A stretch of 64,000 bases of DNA from Stappia sp. 28M-7 (GTDB lineage Bacteria > Pseudomonadota > Alphaproteobacteria > Rhizobiales > Stappiaceae), in contig NZ_JACMIA010000001.1 in assembly GCF_014252955.1 (NCBI RefSeq), positions 3,680,258 to 3,744,257 on the forward strand. Reading direction: 5' to 3'. Shown here piece by piece: positions 35,001 to 44,310 of this stretch (within the stretch, counting starts at the first letter, position 1; the number at the start of each line of letters is the position of its first letter). Below the pieces are notes generated by a model, which was not told where the DNA came from, did no database searches, and was given only the letters and a program-made list of their open reading frames with translations. The position numbers were made by a program, and so were the translations under genes.

Positions 35001-35035
35001 AAAGAAAAAGCGGGCGGAGCATCGCCCCGCCCGCT
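35000..35035 (-). terminator. Intrinsic terminator of the 35-43 kb accessory cluster
   Basis: On the minus strand AGCGGGCGG pairs with CCGCCCGCT around a nine-base loop (35009-35035) and is followed by TTTTCTTTTC. It lies about 60 bp after the last cluster stop at 35097. On the plus strand the same stem follows the dienelactone-hydrolase gene without a U-run. Confidence 0.8.
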
Positions 35036-35096: not shown

Positions 35097-38000
35097 TCAC
35101 TCGTCCTTGACCACTTCCGTGAGTTCCCAGACGGCGACGCCGGCGGAGCCGAGATTGCCGACGACGATCAGCGCCTCGCCGATGATCGCCGGGATGTAAT
35201 AGGTCGCTTCCTGGATATCCGGAACGAACAGGAAGCGGGTGGCCTGGCCCGGAATGACATTGGTCAGCGCCCTGGACAGGCCGAGCTTGGCAAGCTTGTC
35301 CTTGTTTTTGCTGGCCGCGTAATTCCATGAGATCATTCCGATATTGGCAAAGCCCCACAGAGTGATGGTCAGCTCCGCCGTATAGGTGCGCGCCTTGCCG
35401 CCCGGAAACGCCAGGATCAGCAGTCCGCGTGTCGGCCCGGCCAACACCTGACAGATCCAGATGACGCCGGCGAAGCCGGGGTCGCCGGCCGGGCAGTTCG
35501 GCGCCGGCGAGCCGGGCCGGATCAGCCAGGGCATGGTCGCGAAGGTGGTGACATAGCGCATCAGGACGGCAGCAAGGCCGGCGAGGTTCTTGCCCTTCGG
35601 CGTCCAGCTCTTCGAGTAGGTCTTCAGCCCTTCCGGCACCTTGCTGCCCTCATCGGGGATCGCCCCGGTGGAGCTGAGGAAGCCGGTGAGCCCGTCGGTG
35701 AAGATGCGCACGACCATGGCGGCGGCGTAGATGCCGAGCGAGACGCCCGCCACCACCTTCTCCGAGGTGCTGTCGAGCAGCACCTGTTTTTGCGTCGTCA
35801 TGCCGAACTTCGATTTCACCCAGTCGACGGTGACGTAGTTCTTGTAGGCATCGAGCGAGGCCTGGTCGGGGAACGGCGCCTTGCCGGTGGCCAGCTTGTA
35901 GATCAACGTCGCCGGGATCGCGACCAGCCAGGAGGCGATCTGGCTGACCCGGATCGACAGGCTCTTGCCGGTAAAGAACTTGTAGAGCTGCGACAGGACC
36001 GGAATTTCCCATTCCGCGAACAGCACGTCGCGGAAGGATTCCACCACCTCCCGCACGAGATCCATCAGCGTCGCGATGACGCCCTTGGCCGCGTCGAGCG
36101 CGAACAGGGCAACGCTCTCCATCAGCTTGATGACGCCGCTCATCAGGAGGTTGAGGGCATCATTGGGATTGTCGCCGATGGCGGTGAAAAAGGTCAGCGC
36201 CTCGTTGAAGGCTTCCTTGCCGTCGCCGAACTGGAAGTTGTTGGCAAGGTCCTCCATCATCGCGACCAGATCGTCGAGCGAACTCGACAGCGCGCTGGAA
36301 CTCATCAGGCTGACCGCTCCGCTGCCGCCTTTCTCTTCCGCCTTGCCGCCATTCTGCTCGTAGGCGTTGGAGAACAGATTGTGCTCCATTTCGTAGGCCT
36401 GATCGTCGGTCATCTCCTGCTGCGACGAGAACTGGTCGTAGGTCGGGTTGTCGTCCTTGTTGAGCTCGTCGATCATCGTGTCGACGACCGACTGGAGCGA
36501 GTCCTTCAAGGTGTCGATGCCCGACAGGATCATGTCCTTGACGTGGTCGACCCCCGCCGCCGTGAAGTCGAGCAGAACCCGGGTGTTGTGTTCCACCGCC
36601 TCGGCCATGCGCTGGAAGTCGCCGAGGTTGAACAGGAAGGCGAGCCACTCGAACAGCTGGCGCAGCTTCACCTTCAACCAGTTCCAGACCCCTTGCACGA
36701 AGTCGAAGGCCTGCTGGACGAACTCAATGATCGCCTCGAACACCTTGCCGGCGATCTCGAACAGAACCCGGCCGATACCGTCGATGATCTCGACGACGAT
36801 CTTGGTCAGCCCGTCGATGACGTAGTTCGCAGCGTTCTTGATGCCGTTCCAAACATCGCCCCAGTCGATGCCGAGGAACCCGGCGACCTCGGCGCTGTCG
36901 TCATTGGCCGCCGAGGCCCGCATCACTGCCAGCCGCTCGCCCTTCCAGTCGGCCACCTGCGCGAGCGTCATCGGCTGATACTGCGGAAACCCGGAGGTGA
37001 AGTCGATGGACCAGGCCGTGCCGGACATGGCCCTGAGATCCAGCCGCGGGTCGAAGCCCCGCGCCGCCTTGCGCCGGGAGACCGTGTGGTAAACCACCCG
37101 CGCGGCGCGCGTCTCGCGCTGGCCGGCGATCTCCATCGAGGCCTGGGTGATCTGCTGCAGGCTCTGCGCATACTCGTCGCTGCTGCGATATTGGGCCGGC
37201 AGCAGGTAGTTGCCGGCCGCATCCTTGGCGTTCTTGATGTCGGTGACCGAAAGGCTGGCAAGCTTTTCCTGCAGCTGCAGGTTCGGCTCCACCACGATGG
37301 GCGTGCCGGCCAGTGTTCCCGGCGTCTCGATATAGACCGTCGCCGCCGCCAGCGCCGTCGCCTGCTGGTAGATCACCAGCTTGCCGCCCGGCCCGGTCTG
37401 GGCCGCAACCCGGTTGAGCTGGCTGCAACGGTAGGAGCGGCCGTCGACGAACAGGGTCACCAGGAACGAGGCCTGGATCGAGACCGGCGCGAAGGACAGC
37501 GGCATGCCGTCTTCGTCCAGAACCACCACCTCCAGCGCATGGGTCTCCACCGGCACCATGTCGTTGTCCTGGCGCAGCAGGTCGATGCGCTGGTCGAACC
37601 ACTGGCGCGAGGTCGGCGACTGCCAGAAGCGGGTGAGATCGCCGCCCGCCGAAACGGTATAGGCCTCCGCATAGCCCGCCCGGTCGCGCCCGACGGTGAA
37701 GATCGTCGCCTTGGAGCCCGGATCGGCCGGGATCTCGTTGCCCAGCGGAAACAGCGTCTGCCACACAGGCTCGGCGCTGCGACCGCTGCCCGCGGCCTGC
37801 CCGGCGCGCCACAGCCGCCCGTCGGTGCCGATGCCGAACACCTGCAGCAGGTCGTCGAAGGTGACGGAGGCGTAGATCTCCGTCAGCGGCACGCTCTGCG
37901 CGGGATCGACCTGGATCCAGTCGTCGAACTGCTTCACCGTGCCCGACTGGTACTTTTTCTCCTTCTTCAGCAGCAGCTTGCCGGTGCCCAGCTCGACCGC

Positions 38001-38771
38001 GAAGATCGCCAGCCGGTCATTGGCATCCGCGACGACATAGAGCGCCGTCGCCTTCTTCGGCCCGAGCGCGCGCAGCGCCGAGGTGCGGTCGCTGGTCTCG
38101 CTGAACAGGACCGAGTTGTCCTTGCCGATGGCGAAGATCGCCGACTGCACGGAGCTGTTGGCCACCATCGCGATACTCTTGACCTGGGCCTGCGTACCGC
38201 CCGGCCCCATCACCGGCGCCCAGACGGGACCTGCCCATTCGCTGGTGCCCGGCTTGAAGAAATTGTTGGCGAGCAGGCCGTAGTCCTCGCCCGGCACGTC
38301 CAGCATGACGTTGACATAGACATTGCCGGTGATGCCCCGCGCGCCGCGGAACTGGCGGATGGTCTCGCCCGCATCGCGCGGCTTGGTCTCGCGCTGGTAA
38401 TAGGTGCCGGTGGTCGCCTGGTGTTCGGCCAGCGACAGCTGCCCGCTGTCGCCCAGCGTCATGATGTTGGGCGTGTCGCTGCCTTCCGTGCCGGAGGTGT
38501 AGAGGAACAGCTGACGGCCGCGAATGTGCAGATCGGTGTCTTCGTAGGGCGCCATCGACTTCTCGCCCCGACGCAGGCGGTAGATCTCGCCTCCCGTACC
38601 GATCGTGTAGAGGTCGAGATCGCCCGCGCCATTGGCGTAGGTGACGATATCGGTGCCGCCGAGTGCCGGCCGGGAGAGCTGGAAAGTCTCCATGTATTTG
38701 GTGCTGGCGCGCGCCGCCGGGCGCTCGCCCGTATCGAGTTCAGCAAAAACGGACCTGGGCATCGCAATCAT
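35097..38771 (-). CDS. 1224-residue protein: beta-propeller-like front, amphipathic-helix block, hydrophobic C-terminus; unknown
   Basis: Not recognised. The start is ATG 38771, with a clean GGGAGG site inside the upstream gene. Residues to about 420 contain repeated short beta motifs of a lectin or tectonin-like propeller (DLDLYTIGTGGEIYRLRRG, IFAIGKDNSVLFSE, VFGIGTDGRLWRAG, AYTVSAGGDLTRFW). A beta-sandwich-like part follows, then a long run of amphipathic helices (about 620-800) rich in Ile, Phe, Trp and Val (WNGIKNAANYVIDGLTKIVV; QLFEWLAFLFNLGDFQRM). Several hydrophobic segments near the C-terminus could insert in a membrane. There is no signal peptide. A sugar-binding, membrane-active protein is my inference. 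Confidence 0.8.
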   Translation of the reverse strand: MIAMPRSVFAELDTGERPAARASTKYMETFQLSRPALGGTDIVTYANGAGDLDLYTIGTGGEIYRLRRGEKSMAPYEDTDLHIRGRQLFLYTSGTEGSDTPNIMTLGDSGQLSLAEHQATTGTYYQRETKPRDAGETIRQFRGARGITGNVYVNVMLDVPGEDYGLLANNFFKPGTSEWAGPVWAPVMGPGGTQAQVKSIAMVANSSVQSAIFAIGKDNSVLFSETSDRTSALRALGPKKATALYVVADANDRLAIFAVELGTGKLLLKKEKKYQSGTVKQFDDWIQVDPAQSVPLTEIYASVTFDDLLQVFGIGTDGRLWRAGQAAGSGRSAEPVWQTLFPLGNEIPADPGSKATIFTVGRDRAGYAEAYTVSAGGDLTRFWQSPTSRQWFDQRIDLLRQDNDMVPVETHALEVVVLDEDGMPLSFAPVSIQASFLVTLFVDGRSYRCSQLNRVAAQTGPGGKLVIYQQATALAAATVYIETPGTLAGTPIVVEPNLQLQEKLASLSVTDIKNAKDAAGNYLLPAQYRSSDEYAQSLQQITQASMEIAGQRETRAARVVYHTVSRRKAARGFDPRLDLRAMSGTAWSIDFTSGFPQYQPMTLAQVADWKGERLAVMRASAANDDSAEVAGFLGIDWGDVWNGIKNAANYVIDGLTKIVVEIIDGIGRVLFEIAGKVFEAIIEFVQQAFDFVQGVWNWLKVKLRQLFEWLAFLFNLGDFQRMAEAVEHNTRVLLDFTAAGVDHVKDMILSGIDTLKDSLQSVVDTMIDELNKDDNPTYDQFSSQQEMTDDQAYEMEHNLFSNAYEQNGGKAEEKGGSGAVSLMSSSALSSSLDDLVAMMEDLANNFQFGDGKEAFNEALTFFTAIGDNPNDALNLLMSGVIKLMESVALFALDAAKGVIATLMDLVREVVESFRDVLFAEWEIPVLSQLYKFFTGKSLSIRVSQIASWLVAIPATLIYKLATGKAPFPDQASLDAYKNYVTVDWVKSKFGMTTQKQVLLDSTSEKVVAGVSLGIYAAAMVVRIFTDGLTGFLSSTGAIPDEGSKVPEGLKTYSKSWTPKGKNLAGLAAVLMRYVTTFATMPWLIRPGSPAPNCPAGDPGFAGVIWICQVLAGPTRGLLILAFPGGKARTYTAELTITLWGFANIGMISWNYAASKNKDKLAKLGLSRALTNVIPGQATRFLFVPDIQEATYYIPAIIGEALIVVGNLGSAGVAVWELTEVVKDE

Positions 38772-39687
38772 GGAAACCTCCCGAAAATCTGGCCGGTGAA
38801 AGAGACAGGTCGAAAGGGGCCGACGCCCGGTCGGCAAGTTGCCGGGCGAGTTGCAGCGCCGGTGCGCGCCAGAGCGGGCGGCCGTGGGCGTTGCAATAGA
38901 GCGGACGGTCCTGCGGGCGGCGGGCGGCGCGGTCGCGCGCGTCCACCGGGGCAAGCGATGCGGCCATGCCGTCGAGGCCGGCAGCCCCGCAGGCCCTCGC
39001 CCGCAGCGCGGCGATCGCCAGTTCCGCAGGATCGGCGTAAAAGGGGCTGAGCACGCGCATCGCCGAGCGGGTCGGCGCATGCGGCGCAAAGGCTGCGGAG
39101 ATGCGCCCGGCAAGCCGCGGCATCAGGGCGGTCAGCCCACAGCCCGAGCGCCCCGCACCGCAGGCGCCGAGCGCCGCCAGCACGTTGAGATTGGCCGTCA
39201 GGTCGACGGGACCCGGATCGCTTTCCTGAAACCAGGTGCGCAGGAGCGGCGCCCGCGCGAACGGCGGATCGCCGCGCCGCAGCGGCCCGCAGACAAGGCG
39301 CGGCAGCAGGCCCGCAAGCCGCACCAGCCCTTCGCGCGCCTCCCGGCGGCGGCCAGCAACCAATGCCATCCAGGCGAGCGCCGTGTCGTCCGCATCCGGC
39401 GGCAGGCCGTCGATCAGGCGGGGGCCGCTTCGCTCTTGCGGATAAAAGCGGAAGGCCCCCGGCAGGCTGTCATCCTCGCAAGTCTCGAGAAAATCGAGCG
39501 CCCGCGCATGGGCATGGGTCGCCGCCTCGCTGCGGCCCAGCGCCGCGAGCAACAGCGCCACCTGCGCGGTGACGAAGCAACTTTCGTCGGCAACACACCC
39601 TGCCGGCGTTTCCACCTGCGAGGGGAACGCCCCGGACGGAGCCTGAAGGGCCAGAAGATCGGCAAGACGCGGGGCAGGCTCAACCAT
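38740..39687 (-). CDS. Alpha/alpha-toroid protein with a DADDTA motif (prenyltransferase/class II cyclase-like)
   Basis: 315 residues. Repeated helical pairs of the terpenoid-cyclase/prenyltransferase toroid are visible (FVTAQVALLLAALGRSEAA, ALAWMALVAGRRREAREGL, LNVLAALGACGAG). At about residue 100 it has PPDADDTALAW; DxDDTA is the acid motif of class II terpene cyclases. At this length only one toroid domain fits, so it may be a minimal cyclase-like enzyme or a non-catalytic toroid. It overlaps the upstream gene by 8 bp and the downstream gene by 32 bp, so the cluster is tightly coupled. Confidence 0.75.
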   Translation of the reverse strand: MVEPAPRLADLLALQAPSGAFPSQVETPAGCVADESCFVTAQVALLLAALGRSEAATHAHARALDFLETCEDDSLPGAFRFYPQERSGPRLIDGLPPDADDTALAWMALVAGRRREAREGLVRLAGLLPRLVCGPLRRGDPPFARAPLLRTWFQESDPGPVDLTANLNVLAALGACGAGRSGCGLTALMPRLAGRISAAFAPHAPTRSAMRVLSPFYADPAELAIAALRARACGAAGLDGMAASLAPVDARDRAARRPQDRPLYCNAHGRPLWRAPALQLARQLADRASAPFDLSLSPARFSGGFHDCDAQVRFC

Positions 39688-40780
39688 GGCCGGGCTCCCT
39701 CTGATATCCTGGCAGGGCCAGCGTTGCCGTCACGCGCGGCGGGGCCTCAAGCGCCAGCACCATGCCGATGAGCCCGTGCCGCTGCAGCGGGACCTCGTCC
39801 TCGCTGTGCCGGGTGTCGCAGGCTGCGAAGGCCTGTCGGTAGGCCGTCATGTCCCAGCCGCGCGCCGCCCCCTCCGCGAGCAGCGCATCGGCGATGCGCG
39901 CATCCGGGCCGAGCAGGGCAGCGGCGTTCGAATAGAAGGTGAAGGCGCACGCATGGGCGCGCCGCGACCTGCCCTCGCCCGCCATCCGGAAGGCGACGGA
40001 AAAACCGATGTCGCTGGAGGGGATCTCGAAGCGGACGCTGCGCCCGGTCAGCCGCTCGACCAGCCGGCGGACCTCCTGCCCCTGCGGGACAAGGCCGAAC
40101 CGGCGCATCAAGGTGTCGAGATCGCCGGGAAACAGCGGGTCGGTGCGATAGTAGAGCTCCAGCAGCCCGCCGTCCGGCGTCAGCCCAGCCATGGTCGGCC
40201 TCAGGTTCCGGCCCGTGAGAACCGGCGGCGCGCCGGCAAGCCACTCCTCGAAGCCGGCCCAGAGCGGACGGCCCCGTGAATCGGCGACAGGCGCCACCTC
40301 AAGATAGAGCTTGGCCGCAAGGTCGCCGGCCTCGCCCTGGCGGAGGCCCGCCCAGGCGCCGTAACGGCACCCCGCCCGTTGCTGCCAGCAGGACAACCGC
40401 GCGGCGAGCCGCAACACGTCGGGCGCCGGCTCAGTGCCGGAGACCGACCGGCAGAGCGACAGCGCGGCCTCGAGCCGGCTTTCGGGCTGGGCCCCGGGAG
40501 CAGGATCGAGACTGATGCGCGGATCGCAGCCGGCTTCACCATCGGCCCAGACGAAGGCCGCCTCGACCGGGGCGCCCGAAGGCGTCAGGTTGCTTGCCGG
40601 ATGGGCCGCCTCAAGGAGTTCCAGCGGCAGCACCATACGGACAGCTGCGAGCAGGCGGTCGAGCGAGGAGACGGCCGCAGCCGGGTCAGCCCCCGCCCGC
40701 AAGGAGGGGAGCGGTGCCGGGGGTGCACCCCCCGGCCCCTGCTGCAACCGCACGCTCCCGGAGGAGATCGGCGGCTGCAT
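39680..40780 (-). CDS. Unknown protein, possible ABBA-type aromatic prenyltransferase
   Basis: 366 residues, no named family recognised with certainty. The plan resembles bacterial ABBA prenyltransferases: repeated beta-strand pairs spaced by helices (AAFVWADGEAGCDPRISLDP; AAKLYLEVAPV; GGLLELYYRTDPLFPGDLDTLMRRFGL; SVAFRMAGEGRSRRAHACAF; VTATLALPGY). The order of LYY-, LMRRFGL- and FSV-like segments follows the NphB layout. If correct, it would attach an isoprenoid to an aromatic substrate. It follows the 782-residue gene by 6 bp. An unrelated alpha/beta fold remains possible. Confidence 0.7.
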   Translation of the reverse strand: MQPPISSGSVRLQQGPGGAPPAPLPSLRAGADPAAAVSSLDRLLAAVRMVLPLELLEAAHPASNLTPSGAPVEAAFVWADGEAGCDPRISLDPAPGAQPESRLEAALSLCRSVSGTEPAPDVLRLAARLSCWQQRAGCRYGAWAGLRQGEAGDLAAKLYLEVAPVADSRGRPLWAGFEEWLAGAPPVLTGRNLRPTMAGLTPDGGLLELYYRTDPLFPGDLDTLMRRFGLVPQGQEVRRLVERLTGRSVRFEIPSSDIGFSVAFRMAGEGRSRRAHACAFTFYSNAAALLGPDARIADALLAEGAARGWDMTAYRQAFAACDTRHSEDEVPLQRHGLIGMVLALEAPPRVTATLALPGYQREPGHG

Positions 40781-40786
40781 GACAGA

Positions 40787-43135
40787 TCACCCGCCCTGGC
40801 GCATCCGCGCAGCAAGCGCCTCAGGCTCGATCACCTGGTGCACGAGGCCGGGCGTCACGGTCGCCGGCGGCAAGGCCGGCAGTTCCACCGACAGGCGGCC
40901 CGAGACTTCCTGGTTTGCCAGCTCGCGGGTCGTGCCGTCCTTCAGCACATAGACGGCCGTGTAATAGAACTCGATCGTCGGTTCGGCGATCGGCCGCTGG
41001 ATGCCGTAGAACCGCTCCAGATCGTCGACGACGACACCGGACGGCGCTCCCAGCAGGCTGAACAGGATGACGTTCTGCTGCGAGGCCTCGGCTTCCACCC
41101 GCTCCGCCCGGCTCATCTCGTGGCGCGGCCGGGTCAGGAAGGCCGGCAGGGCCTTGCCGAAGGTCTTGCGAGCCTGCGGCTTGAGTTGAAACATCGTGAG
41201 ATTGACGCTGGAAACCTGCGTCCAGTCGATGAGGCTGCTGTCGACCTTGATGCTGTAGTTCTGCACCGTGTTGGTGACCGTCATGGTCTTGTATTCGCTC
41301 GACTGACGATAGCCATCGAGGGTGAAGCTCTCGCCATTCGAATAGAAGATCGTGCCCGAGATGTTGAAATAGGCGTTGTTGGTGTTGTCGACCGCCTGGA
41401 AATTCCAGCGCGGCTCGGCGAAGCTCAACAGCCCCGTCGGCTGCCAGTTCGACCAGGTGTTCTCCGCCAGCCAGCTGTCGCCGTTGTTGAGCGGGTCGAA
41501 ATACTGGGCGTTGACGTCGACCAGCAGCAGCGTCGTCGTTTCCGTCGTGTAGTTGAACGCACGCAGCGTGAACTGGGTGAACAGCCCCTTCGGGTCGGCC
41601 ACGAACACGATGTCCGCATTGCCCGATCCCGTGAAGTCGGGTGCCGACGACAGGGCGCCGGGCGGTTCCGAGACGATCTCGCTGTTGTCGGCCATCTGGT
41701 AGCGCAGCCGATAGCTGTAGTTCTGGCCGATGGGCAGATTGTAGAAGCTGTCGAACCGGACGCCGTTCTCCACTCCGTTGCCGGTCAGGGTCTTGGTCTG
41801 GACGATGGCCGGGTTGCCCGCCGGCGGCGCGAAGAAGAAGTCGATATTGACCTCCCGCACGCCGGCCGGACCGGTAAAGGGAATGTTCTGGCCGATGAAG
41901 GTCACCTGCCGCGTTCCGAAAACGTTCGGTGTGATGTTGACCAGCGTTTCCGTCGTGGTGATCGGGTCGCTCTGGAAGGTCTTGCCGTCCTTGAAGTTGA
42001 TCACATAGCTGTAGGTGAATTCCGGATTGTAGCTGCCCCCGGAAAAGTCGCCCGGCGCCTCGTAGATCTTCGAGGACTTGTCGCCATCGGTGACGATCAG
42101 CGTGAACGTGTTGTCGGTCTTGCGGCTCGGATAGGTGACAGTGACCGTCACCGTCTCGGCAACCGGATCATCGGTCCCGGAGCGGTTGAGTTCGCCGATC
42201 AGGTTGAACACCACCGAGAGCTTGCGGTTATCGACCCTGGTGAAGACCTGCTTCCACTCGTCGGAGGAGAAGCGGCGCATGAAGCTGCTCACCGGCGTCG
42301 ACCAGTCGATCACCGTATCTTCCTGATAGGTCTGGTTGAACGAGGTCGTCGCCGAGACGGGATTGGGGCCCGTCGCCATGACGGCCGCCGCCGCCACCGT
42401 GTTGGCCACCTGGTTTTCCAGCGTCGTCCAGCCCCAGTCGCGCACCCGCTGGGCCAGCTCGTCGCTGCTGCCCGGTCCGAGCTCGACCTTCACTTCGCCC
42501 GCGCCCGACTGGCGCAGCACCTGCTTGACCTCCTGCAGGACCTGCTTCTGGTTGCCCCAGGTGTCGCGGACGGTCTTGTATTTCTTCTCGTATTCGATGG
42601 CCGCCTCGGCCGTGTAGATTACCGTGGCCTTGGCGCCGAGCAGCTTGGTCAACACCTGCATCTCGTATTCGACGCGGAAGGTCGAGGCGCCGCCTGCATC
42701 ACCGCTGAAGGCGTTCTTGAAGCTGTTGACCGCCTCCGGCGTCGCCAACTCGATCTGGAAGGCCGCGACATTGGTGCCATAGAGCGTCGGCTCTACCGCA
42801 AGAACCTGATTTTCGCCCGCGATGTCGTAGTAGAAATAGGCCGTACCGCCCACCCACACGAAACCTCCCCAGGAGATGTCGGTGCCGAGGATCTCTTCGG
42901 CCGCGCGGCGCGCCTCGATCGGCTGCACGAGCTCCATCTCGAAGGTACACAGGCCCGCGATGCCGCCGCCATTGGAGGTGTACTCCGTCAGACCGAAGGA
43001 GGGGGCGCCGTCCAGCGTCCGCAACCTCGGAACCGGCACCATGTACCAGAGCTTGGGATTGTCGTGATCCTGGTAGACATAGGTGACGCCGCTGGCGCCG
43101 TACTCGATCTCGCGAACGCTCGAGACGTCGAACAT
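40787..43135 (-). CDS. 782-residue beta-rich protein of unknown function
   Basis: Not recognised. The start is ATG 43135, after GGAGGG at good spacing. There is no signal peptide. The first 150 residues form an apparent domain (GVTYVYQDHDNPKLWYMVPV, then TFEMELVQPIEARRAAEEIL). A helical linker (EKKYKTVRDTWGNQKQVLQEV) follows, then three or more Ig-like or fibre-like beta modules rich in Thr, Asn, Tyr and Phe. It is the first gene of the cluster and is lower in GC than its neighbours. The amino-acid composition (Asn, Thr, Tyr rich) suggests an extracellular or structural protein rather than an enzyme. Confidence 0.8.
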   Translation of the reverse strand: MFDVSSVREIEYGASGVTYVYQDHDNPKLWYMVPVPRLRTLDGAPSFGLTEYTSNGGGIAGLCTFEMELVQPIEARRAAEEILGTDISWGGFVWVGGTAYFYYDIAGENQVLAVEPTLYGTNVAAFQIELATPEAVNSFKNAFSGDAGGASTFRVEYEMQVLTKLLGAKATVIYTAEAAIEYEKKYKTVRDTWGNQKQVLQEVKQVLRQSGAGEVKVELGPGSSDELAQRVRDWGWTTLENQVANTVAAAAVMATGPNPVSATTSFNQTYQEDTVIDWSTPVSSFMRRFSSDEWKQVFTRVDNRKLSVVFNLIGELNRSGTDDPVAETVTVTVTYPSRKTDNTFTLIVTDGDKSSKIYEAPGDFSGGSYNPEFTYSYVINFKDGKTFQSDPITTTETLVNITPNVFGTRQVTFIGQNIPFTGPAGVREVNIDFFFAPPAGNPAIVQTKTLTGNGVENGVRFDSFYNLPIGQNYSYRLRYQMADNSEIVSEPPGALSSAPDFTGSGNADIVFVADPKGLFTQFTLRAFNYTTETTTLLLVDVNAQYFDPLNNGDSWLAENTWSNWQPTGLLSFAEPRWNFQAVDNTNNAYFNISGTIFYSNGESFTLDGYRQSSEYKTMTVTNTVQNYSIKVDSSLIDWTQVSSVNLTMFQLKPQARKTFGKALPAFLTRPRHEMSRAERVEAEASQQNVILFSLLGAPSGVVVDDLERFYGIQRPIAEPTIEFYYTAVYVLKDGTTRELANQEVSGRLSVELPALPPATVTPGLVHQVIEPEALAARMRQGG

Positions 43136-43154
43136 CACAGCCCTCCATCGAAAA

Positions 43155-43277
43155 AATTGAATGAATTTCAATTACACCCTATGCGCGAATGTTCGCATCG
43201 CGCTCAGGCATAAACAATCGACAGAAGCTGCAATATTGATCCTATTTTCGACATTGAACGCGAATTTCAAGTCGAAA
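43155..43277 (-). promoter_or_regulatory. AT-rich leader of the accessory cluster with three inverted repeats
   Basis: The 251-bp gap 43136-43386 is strikingly AT-rich. It holds AATTGAA-N5-TTCAATT (43155-43173), GCGCGA-N9-TCGCGC (43183-43203) and a near-perfect pair TTTCGAC-A-TTGAA / TTCAA-GTCGAAA (43246-43277). The last spans 32 bp and looks like an operator. A TTGAAA-like -35 overlaps it on the minus strand, but I cannot assign a -10 confidently. Confidence 0.5.
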
Positions 43278-43386
43278 TTAAAATTATCGTTTTATAAAAA
43301 CTGTCATATTGACGCAGAGGAATCTCATAAATTGGAATAAATACGATGATATATCGATAGATATAAATTCTTCATCGGTGAAAATA

Positions 43387-44310
43387 TCAGGCCGAAGGCT
43401 CGCCGATACGCCGGCGATGCGGCGCAAAGAGGCAGGCGACAGCCAGGATTGCACCGGACACAGTGGCAATCATGCCGGCAGCGCTGACCGCGTTGGCAGC
43501 GCCGAGCCATTGCGGCCCGTAGCCGGCCAGCACATAGCCGAGCACCGCAGAGAGCGCGGCGAAGACAGCGCTCCAGGCGACCTGACGCTCCAGCCGCTCG
43601 GTCATCAGCCGCGCGGTCGCCGGCGGGCAGATGAACATGGCGATGACGATGATCGAGCCAACCGCGTCGAAGGCCGCAACCGCCGCAACGGCCGAGGCGG
43701 CGACCAGCGCCAGACCGATCAGCCGCACCGGCAGGCCGAGTGTCGCGGCAAACCCCTCGTCGAAGGTGGACAGTTTCAACGGGCGCCAGAATACCAGCAT
43801 CAGGACGGTCATCACGGCGGCGACCAGCGCGATGCGCGGCAGCTCGGGCGGCAGTCCGGCAAGGGCCGCCGGATCCAGCAGCGAGCCCCAGCCGGTCGCG
43901 TCGAACCAGATCAGGCTCTCCAGGTTGCCCATCAGCGCGTGCTCGACATCGAGGTGAACGCCACTGGTGTCGCTCTGTTCCAGCAGCAGCACGCCCCCGG
44001 CGAACATCGCGGTGAACACGACGCCCATGGCCGCGCCCGGCTCGATGCCGCCGAGCCGGCGGATCGTCTCGATCAGCAGGACCGCAACCAGCGCCGCTCC
44101 GGCGGCGCCCAGCAGCATCGGCAGGCTGGCAAGACTGCCGGTGACCAGGAAGGCGACGACGATACCGGGCAGCACCACATGACTGATGGCATCGCCGATC
44201 AGCGCCTGCCGGCGCAGGATCAGGAAATTGCCCGGCAGCGCGCAGGCGATGGCCGAGAGCACGCCGATCAGGATCGGCGTCAGCGACAGCTGGACGAACT
44301 CGGCACCCAT
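43387..44310 (-). CDS. Metal ABC transporter permease (MntB/ZnuB type)
   Basis: 307 residues with about eight transmembrane helices and the ABC-3 family signature (GNFLILRRQALIGDAISHVVLPG, VGSIIVIAMFICPPATARLM). ABC-3 permeases import Mn, Fe or Zn. The start ATG overlaps the stop of the second permease gene by TGATG. Last gene of a four-gene operon; the AT-rich gap before the unknown cluster follows. Pairing of two different permease genes is typical of SitCD/TroCD systems and suggests a heterodimer. Confidence 0.92.
   Translation of the reverse strand: MGAEFVQLSLTPILIGVLSAIACALPGNFLILRRQALIGDAISHVVLPGIVVAFLVTGSLASLPMLLGAAGAALVAVLLIETIRRLGGIEPGAAMGVVFTAMFAGGVLLLEQSDTSGVHLDVEHALMGNLESLIWFDATGWGSLLDPAALAGLPPELPRIALVAAVMTVLMLVFWRPLKLSTFDEGFAATLGLPVRLIGLALVAASAVAAVAAFDAVGSIIVIAMFICPPATARLMTERLERQVAWSAVFAALSAVLGYVLAGYGPQWLGAANAVSAAGMIATVSGAILAVACLFAPHRRRIGEPSA

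Follow-up and report, generated by a model that had tools for sequence, protein, structure and literature searches.

What are two homologues of terpene-handling enzymes doing between two giant genes in a bacterial genome? The question is raised by a locus within a stretch of 64,000 nucleotides (hereafter the window) of the 5.1 Mb genome of Stappia sp. 28M-7 (contig NZ_JACMIA010000001.1, positions 3,680,258 to 3,744,257), in which four genes, here called A to D, follow one another on the minus strand (Table 1). All four are intact open reading frames (ORFs), with a gap of 6 bp between A and B and overlaps of 8 bp between B and C and of 32 bp between C and D. An initial annotation, made from the letters of the window alone, had described a packed unit of four minus-strand genes with one AT-rich leader and one intrinsic terminator, and each of these elements was recovered. 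The presence of two terpene-enzyme homologues beside two giants suggests that some product of the unit is decorated with a terpene. We tentatively propose that the operon encodes a two-step terpenylation module together with two giant toxin-like or surface proteins, and that a product of the operon itself, most likely A, is terpenylated.

The order A-B-C-D was kept in all 10 loci found with gene D (eight labelled Stappia, one Rhodobacteraceae and one Pyxidicoccus, the last at 44-47% identity), so that the unit is more than chance; a search for the same four-gene order in other genomes was the check that the initial annotation had proposed. Gene A was present in 13 of 101 genomes, namely our own and 12 of the 13 others listed for the genus, and in 0 of the remaining 87. 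In two relatives (L015 and L018) the unit has, as judged by eye, the flanking genes that it has in the window, namely those for the ABC transporter and the dienelactone hydrolase. Ratios of nonsynonymous to synonymous substitution rates (dN/dS), taken against four relatives (L015, L016, L018 and L023), were 0.04-0.24 for A, 0.08-0.26 for D, 0.19-0.31 for C and 0.30-0.46 for B; purifying selection acts on every one of the four, tightly on A and D and more loosely on B and C.

Two plasmids, one from Azospirillum lipoferum 4B and one from Calothrix, carry the first three genes in the same order without D. Queries with A, B and C against 72,556 plasmids returned just these two records, beyond matches to transposon ends and one match of B at E 5. 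On the Azospirillum plasmid (L028:6481-14285), three genes lie directly upstream of A-B-C: one MakB-like (1.3e-55), one MakA-like (4.5e-78) and a third that is weakly HBL-like (E 0.07). These neighbours recall the Mak/Hbl/Nhe alpha-pore-forming toxins, whereas the Stappia operon has no such gene, and the sequence searches made with D showed no relation to them. The end of the Azospirillum C gene runs into a Tn3-like transposon. On the Calothrix plasmid, A-B-C is followed by a fragment of A, two other genes and a protein of 1494 amino acids (aa) with an A-like part. Because the A-B-C linkage recurs across lineages, the four genes likely form a dedicated system. The initial annotation had supposed as much, and the linkage speaks for it, but an orphan B and A-like arrays without B or C, described below, do not.

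The structure model of B is confident and has an ABBA barrel, and all 50 matches listed for it by each program were, by title, ABBA-fold prenyltransferases. Structural alignments over ~300 residues with the bacterial dimethylallyltryptophan synthases (DMATS) IptA, 5-DMATS, PriB and TleC gave ~14-20% identity. Residue E73, which we take to be the catalytic Glu of the GxPxE motif of ABBA/DMATS enzymes, is invariant in all 15 B rows of alignment A9 and is replaced by Gln in the remote L061 protein; the first KxY motif (residues 157-159) is likewise invariant in all 15 rows. By its predicted structure, gene B is thus an ABBA/DMATS-fold prenyltransferase homologue, in line with the ABBA-like protein of the initial annotation. 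It shares with the bacterial enzymes the fold, the GxPxE Glu and one KxY motif, and differs from them in having no match to the Pfam family Trp_DMAT, in carrying Glu at one Lys position and in sitting in an operon with giants.

Gene C carries a DxDDT motif that is invariant in 9 of 9 rows (DADDTA in the window) and aligns with the DxDD of squalene-hopene cyclase (SHC). When a six-row profile of C was run against other genomes, it met SHC-like proteins at the DADDTA motif. A nine-row profile, which adds the myxobacterial relatives L060 and L061 and a Nostoc relative to the earlier rows, matched SHC (E 1e-5) and drimenol synthase (5e-4) in the PDB and, more weakly, ent-copalyl diphosphate synthase (0.02), MstE (0.13) and thioester-domain proteins. 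L060 and L061 exceed the cut-off of Pfam SQHop_cyclase_C (PF13243); the C protein of the window matched no Pfam family and stayed below the SQHop_cyclase cut-off. Gene C is therefore, on sequence evidence, a well-supported monodomain class II terpene-cyclase-like protein, and the toroid, terpene-cyclase-like label first given to it is supported on the same grounds. Motif and family profile tie it to MstE, SHC and drimenol synthase, but at ~315 aa it is only weakly related to them, as the MstE value illustrates. Among its relatives, one lies beside asparagine-synthase-like and LanM-like genes (L060:8059-14846), a setting like that of ribosomally synthesised and post-translationally modified peptides (RiPPs), and another lies inside a large TPR protein on a Nostoc plasmid, with an AMP-binding gene adjoining (L072:9752-13683).

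The same two kinds of enzyme, an ABBA-fold transferase and an MstE-like monodomain class II cyclase, are joined in NctPC. In a 2026 review (PMC13290415, section 2.3), NctPC is described as a fusion of an ABBA transferase with a cyclase that resembles MstE, itself a monodomain cyclase; the fusion puts a geranylgeranyl group on tryptophan and then cyclises it. The RiPP setting of NctPC is taken from the title of a paper cited there. Compared with that description, B and C differ in being two separate genes instead of a fusion and in having giant proteins as neighbours, with no precursor peptide found beside the enzymes.

Of the two giants, A matched no family in Pfam, NCBIfam or PADLOC. Its AlphaFold2 model, built with 21 rows, is of moderate confidence (predicted local distance difference test, pLDDT, 71.9; predicted template modelling score, pTM, 0.37) and consists of an N-terminal alpha/beta domain (~1-260) followed by a string of Ig/FN3-like beta-sandwiches, with generic Ig strings as fold matches. 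The initial annotation had called both giants beta-rich or membrane-active, and the first of these terms fits the A model. In D, residues 141-387 weakly match the PLL/CV39L beta-propeller lectins (NCBIfam NF052350, E 8.4e-5; 21.8 bits, where the cut-off is 350), residues 636-898 form a helical stretch with a tape-measure-like PHROG match (E 1.2e-5), and hydrophobic stretches lie near residues 1005, 1103 and 1195, towards the C-terminus. D may thus combine a weakly lectin-like N-terminus with a helical middle and a hydrophobic C-terminus, and this long helical, hydrophobic end sets it apart from the PLL/CV39L lectins. Searches of D against Pfam and PDB sequences gave no match to HBL/Mak alpha-pore-forming toxins. 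Together, A and D could resemble a cytoplasm-stored, toxin-like or surface complex.

From these elements we infer the activity of B and C, the order of their steps, the acceptor and a role at the membrane. B would transfer the allylic prenyl chain of a prenyl diphosphate to an aromatic acceptor, and C would protonate the chain end via the DxDD aspartate, folding the chain into rings. The acceptor would most likely be a protein of the same operon, and A first of all because A-B-C travels together while D is swapped for other giants or pore formers. At a target membrane, the terpene would then aid the binding or assembly of A alongside D. The initial annotation had offered an isoprenoid-decorated product or a toxin-like complex as alternatives; the two may hold together, which the evidence allows. 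A candidate for the modified residue may be sought among the 55 residues that are invariant across the 16 A proteins of ABC loci, four of them tryptophans. W193 is the only one of the four in a stretch (181-204) with pLDDT <50, a case weakened because four other invariant residues (T255, P257, S463 and P468) share such low-confidence stretches. A fully specified version, in which a cyclised terpene, placed by B and C on W193 in a flexible part of A, is an anchor needed for membrane action with D, and in which the two enzymes are a split NctPC-like pair exchanged between phyla with different toxin-like partners, strikes us as improbable.

Several findings weigh against terpenylation of A. The second KxY motif of B reads ExY in all four ABC lineages aligned, with Lys only in L041 and L061. 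We take this Lys to be the DMATS lysine position, in an Arg/Lys/Tyr set that presumably binds diphosphate in ABBA/DMATS enzymes; with Glu in its place, donor binding by B may be altered or lost. Pfam Trp_DMAT (PF11991) had no match in the B protein of the window or elsewhere in its genome, and its best E among the relatives scanned was 0.19, which falls short of the cut-off. A first B profile run against PDB sequences placed two tryptophan dimethylallyltransferases on top (E 0.085 and 0.5), and the larger profile A9 lost these matches; because the profile matches are so weak, the ABBA assignment of B rests on the structure model. Against the PDB, the six-row C profile matched SHC and nothing else, with an E of 0.22. 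The faster-evolving genes of the unit are B and C rather than A and D, and neither an export route nor toxicity is known for the two giants.

The distribution of distant relatives counts in part on the same side. The A profile met 2 of 299 genomes of our own phylum (own genome included) and 2 of 195 of that of Pyxidicoccus (query genome included). The B profile met 3 of 299 at E 0.001, a figure that includes the own genome and one already represented in the profile; at E 0.01 it met 4 of 195 (query genome included), of which three are marginal. The C profile met 3 of 299 at E 0.001 (own included); at E 0.01 it met 10 of 195 (query genome included), of which seven lie above 1e-4. In two of the profile searches the matches to L041, and in one of these also the matches to L061, are circular, as these proteins sat in the profiles. 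A genome of the Pyxidicoccus phylum (L040, G493:C192:14001-34000) has tandem A-like genes, and no B or C was found on the whole contig (L040, L044, L045). Another array, in our own phylum (L041, G159:C6:31001-51000), has three A-like genes (855, 791 and 750 aa, E 2e-14 to 6e-6) and a B homologue (E 1.5e-5 among local ORFs) but no C. Two further genes there (634 and 466 aa) are A-like only by eye, and a Nal1-like protease, an amidase and a cysteine protease recognised by eye are neighbours. In G468 (L061:9100-19950), an RHS/SpvB giant of 2694 aa lies between a C-like gene and a weakly B-like one, and after the latter comes a gene that by eye is collagen-like and glycine-rich. The B-like gene is recognised by a few motifs, has a B-profile score of only 3.6 bits (an E of 0.28 among local ORFs) and was not recovered at E 0.01 in a genome-wide B profile search. 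An orphan B homologue in G197 (L080:9241-10221; E 5e-36 with a six-row profile) stands in a 20 kb stretch where no A, C or D was found and has apparently, by eye, lost the KxY motif. G251 (L081:8852-12502), where a C-like domain with DADDTA ends a large protein that by eye is membrane-like, also counts against strict linkage, and C relatives are found in RiPP-like and other settings. Relatives of the second half of D occur on plasmids of Stanieria, Streptomyces and Kovacikia, and the stretches fetched around them hold no A, B or C. The Stanieria relative (L025:7569-12616) stands beside a 471-aa protein matching no known family.

Given the Glu in B and the faster rate at which B and C evolve, a small-molecule product or lost activity stays in play. 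In the first case, B and C would turn a free aromatic compound into a small metabolite, an indole-terpenoid or something similar, which A and D, themselves unmodified, would carry, sense or accompany. The listed structural neighbours of B, by title mostly enzymes of free tryptophan or other small aromatics, fit this, as do the biosynthetic genes near C relatives in L060 and on the Nostoc plasmid and the looser selection on B and C, which may be that of product-diversifying enzymes. However, no oxidase or precursor-making gene lies within the four-gene unit, and A, being linked to B and C in four lineages, belongs to the function; we regard such a metabolite as possible but doubtful. It is unlikely that B and C are no longer enzymes and that their ABBA and toroid scaffolds have been reused as chaperone or accessory subunits for the folding or assembly of A and D. 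The altered lysine position, dN/dS values 1.9 to 7.5 times (B) and 1.3 to 4.8 times (C) those of A, and the G197 orphan would suit this reuse, but catalytic motifs usually go early in pseudoenzymes, and here E73, the first KxY of B and the DxDDT of C are all invariant. Finally, a ribosomal precursor peptide encoded elsewhere in the genome, with A and D as delivery or target proteins, is a very unlikely substrate: despite the precedent of NctPC, as far as its setting is given, and the LanM-like neighbour in L060, no Trp-bearing ORF of 15-90 aa was found in the window's leader or 3' end (the search covered leaders and the 3' end, not the rest of the genome), those in the leaders of L015, L018, L024 and L029 by eye have none in common with the window, and the B/C pair travels with giants, not small peptides.

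Transcription of the unit may begin further upstream. A promoter scan found no sigma-70-like promoter. An ABC-transporter permease gene on the same strand ends at 43387, and the terminator scan lists no site that would separate it from A; the permease and the four genes may therefore share one transcript. A 32-aa ORF without tryptophan lies in the leader region (43136-43440) and has, by eye, a counterpart in L015 and none in L018; it may be chance.

Table 1. Coordinates of the four genes, their key codons and the flanking signals within the window.
Feature	Position	Strand	Description
AT-rich leader of gene A	43136..43330	minus	195 bases, 37% GC
Gene A	40787-43135	minus	782 aa, intact ORF
A W193 codon	42557..42559	minus	Invariant Trp, 16/16; speculative candidate acceptor
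Gene B	39680-40780	minus	366 aa, intact ORF
B E73 codon	40562..40564	minus	Aligned with GxPLE motif of 4yzj (TleC), tryptophan dimethylallyltransferase
Gene C	38740-39687	minus	315 aa, intact ORF
C residues 98-102, DADDT	39382..39396	minus	Class II cyclase-like DxDD motif
Gene D	35097-38771	minus	1224 aa, intact ORF
Intrinsic-terminator-like site	35009-35035	minus	12 pairs, T-rich tail

The kind has been known since NctPC; within the open-licence literature searched, the setting is new. In the literature read, the bacterial products known to be terpenylated by enzymes of this sort are small molecules and ribosomal peptides. If our tentative proposal holds, a stand-alone transferase/cyclase pair would extend terpenylation to large proteins and would represent a new way of giving a protein a membrane anchor. 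Terpenylation of A is directly testable by mass spectrometry, in an uncharacterised protein family that spans alphaproteobacteria, myxobacteria and cyanobacteria.
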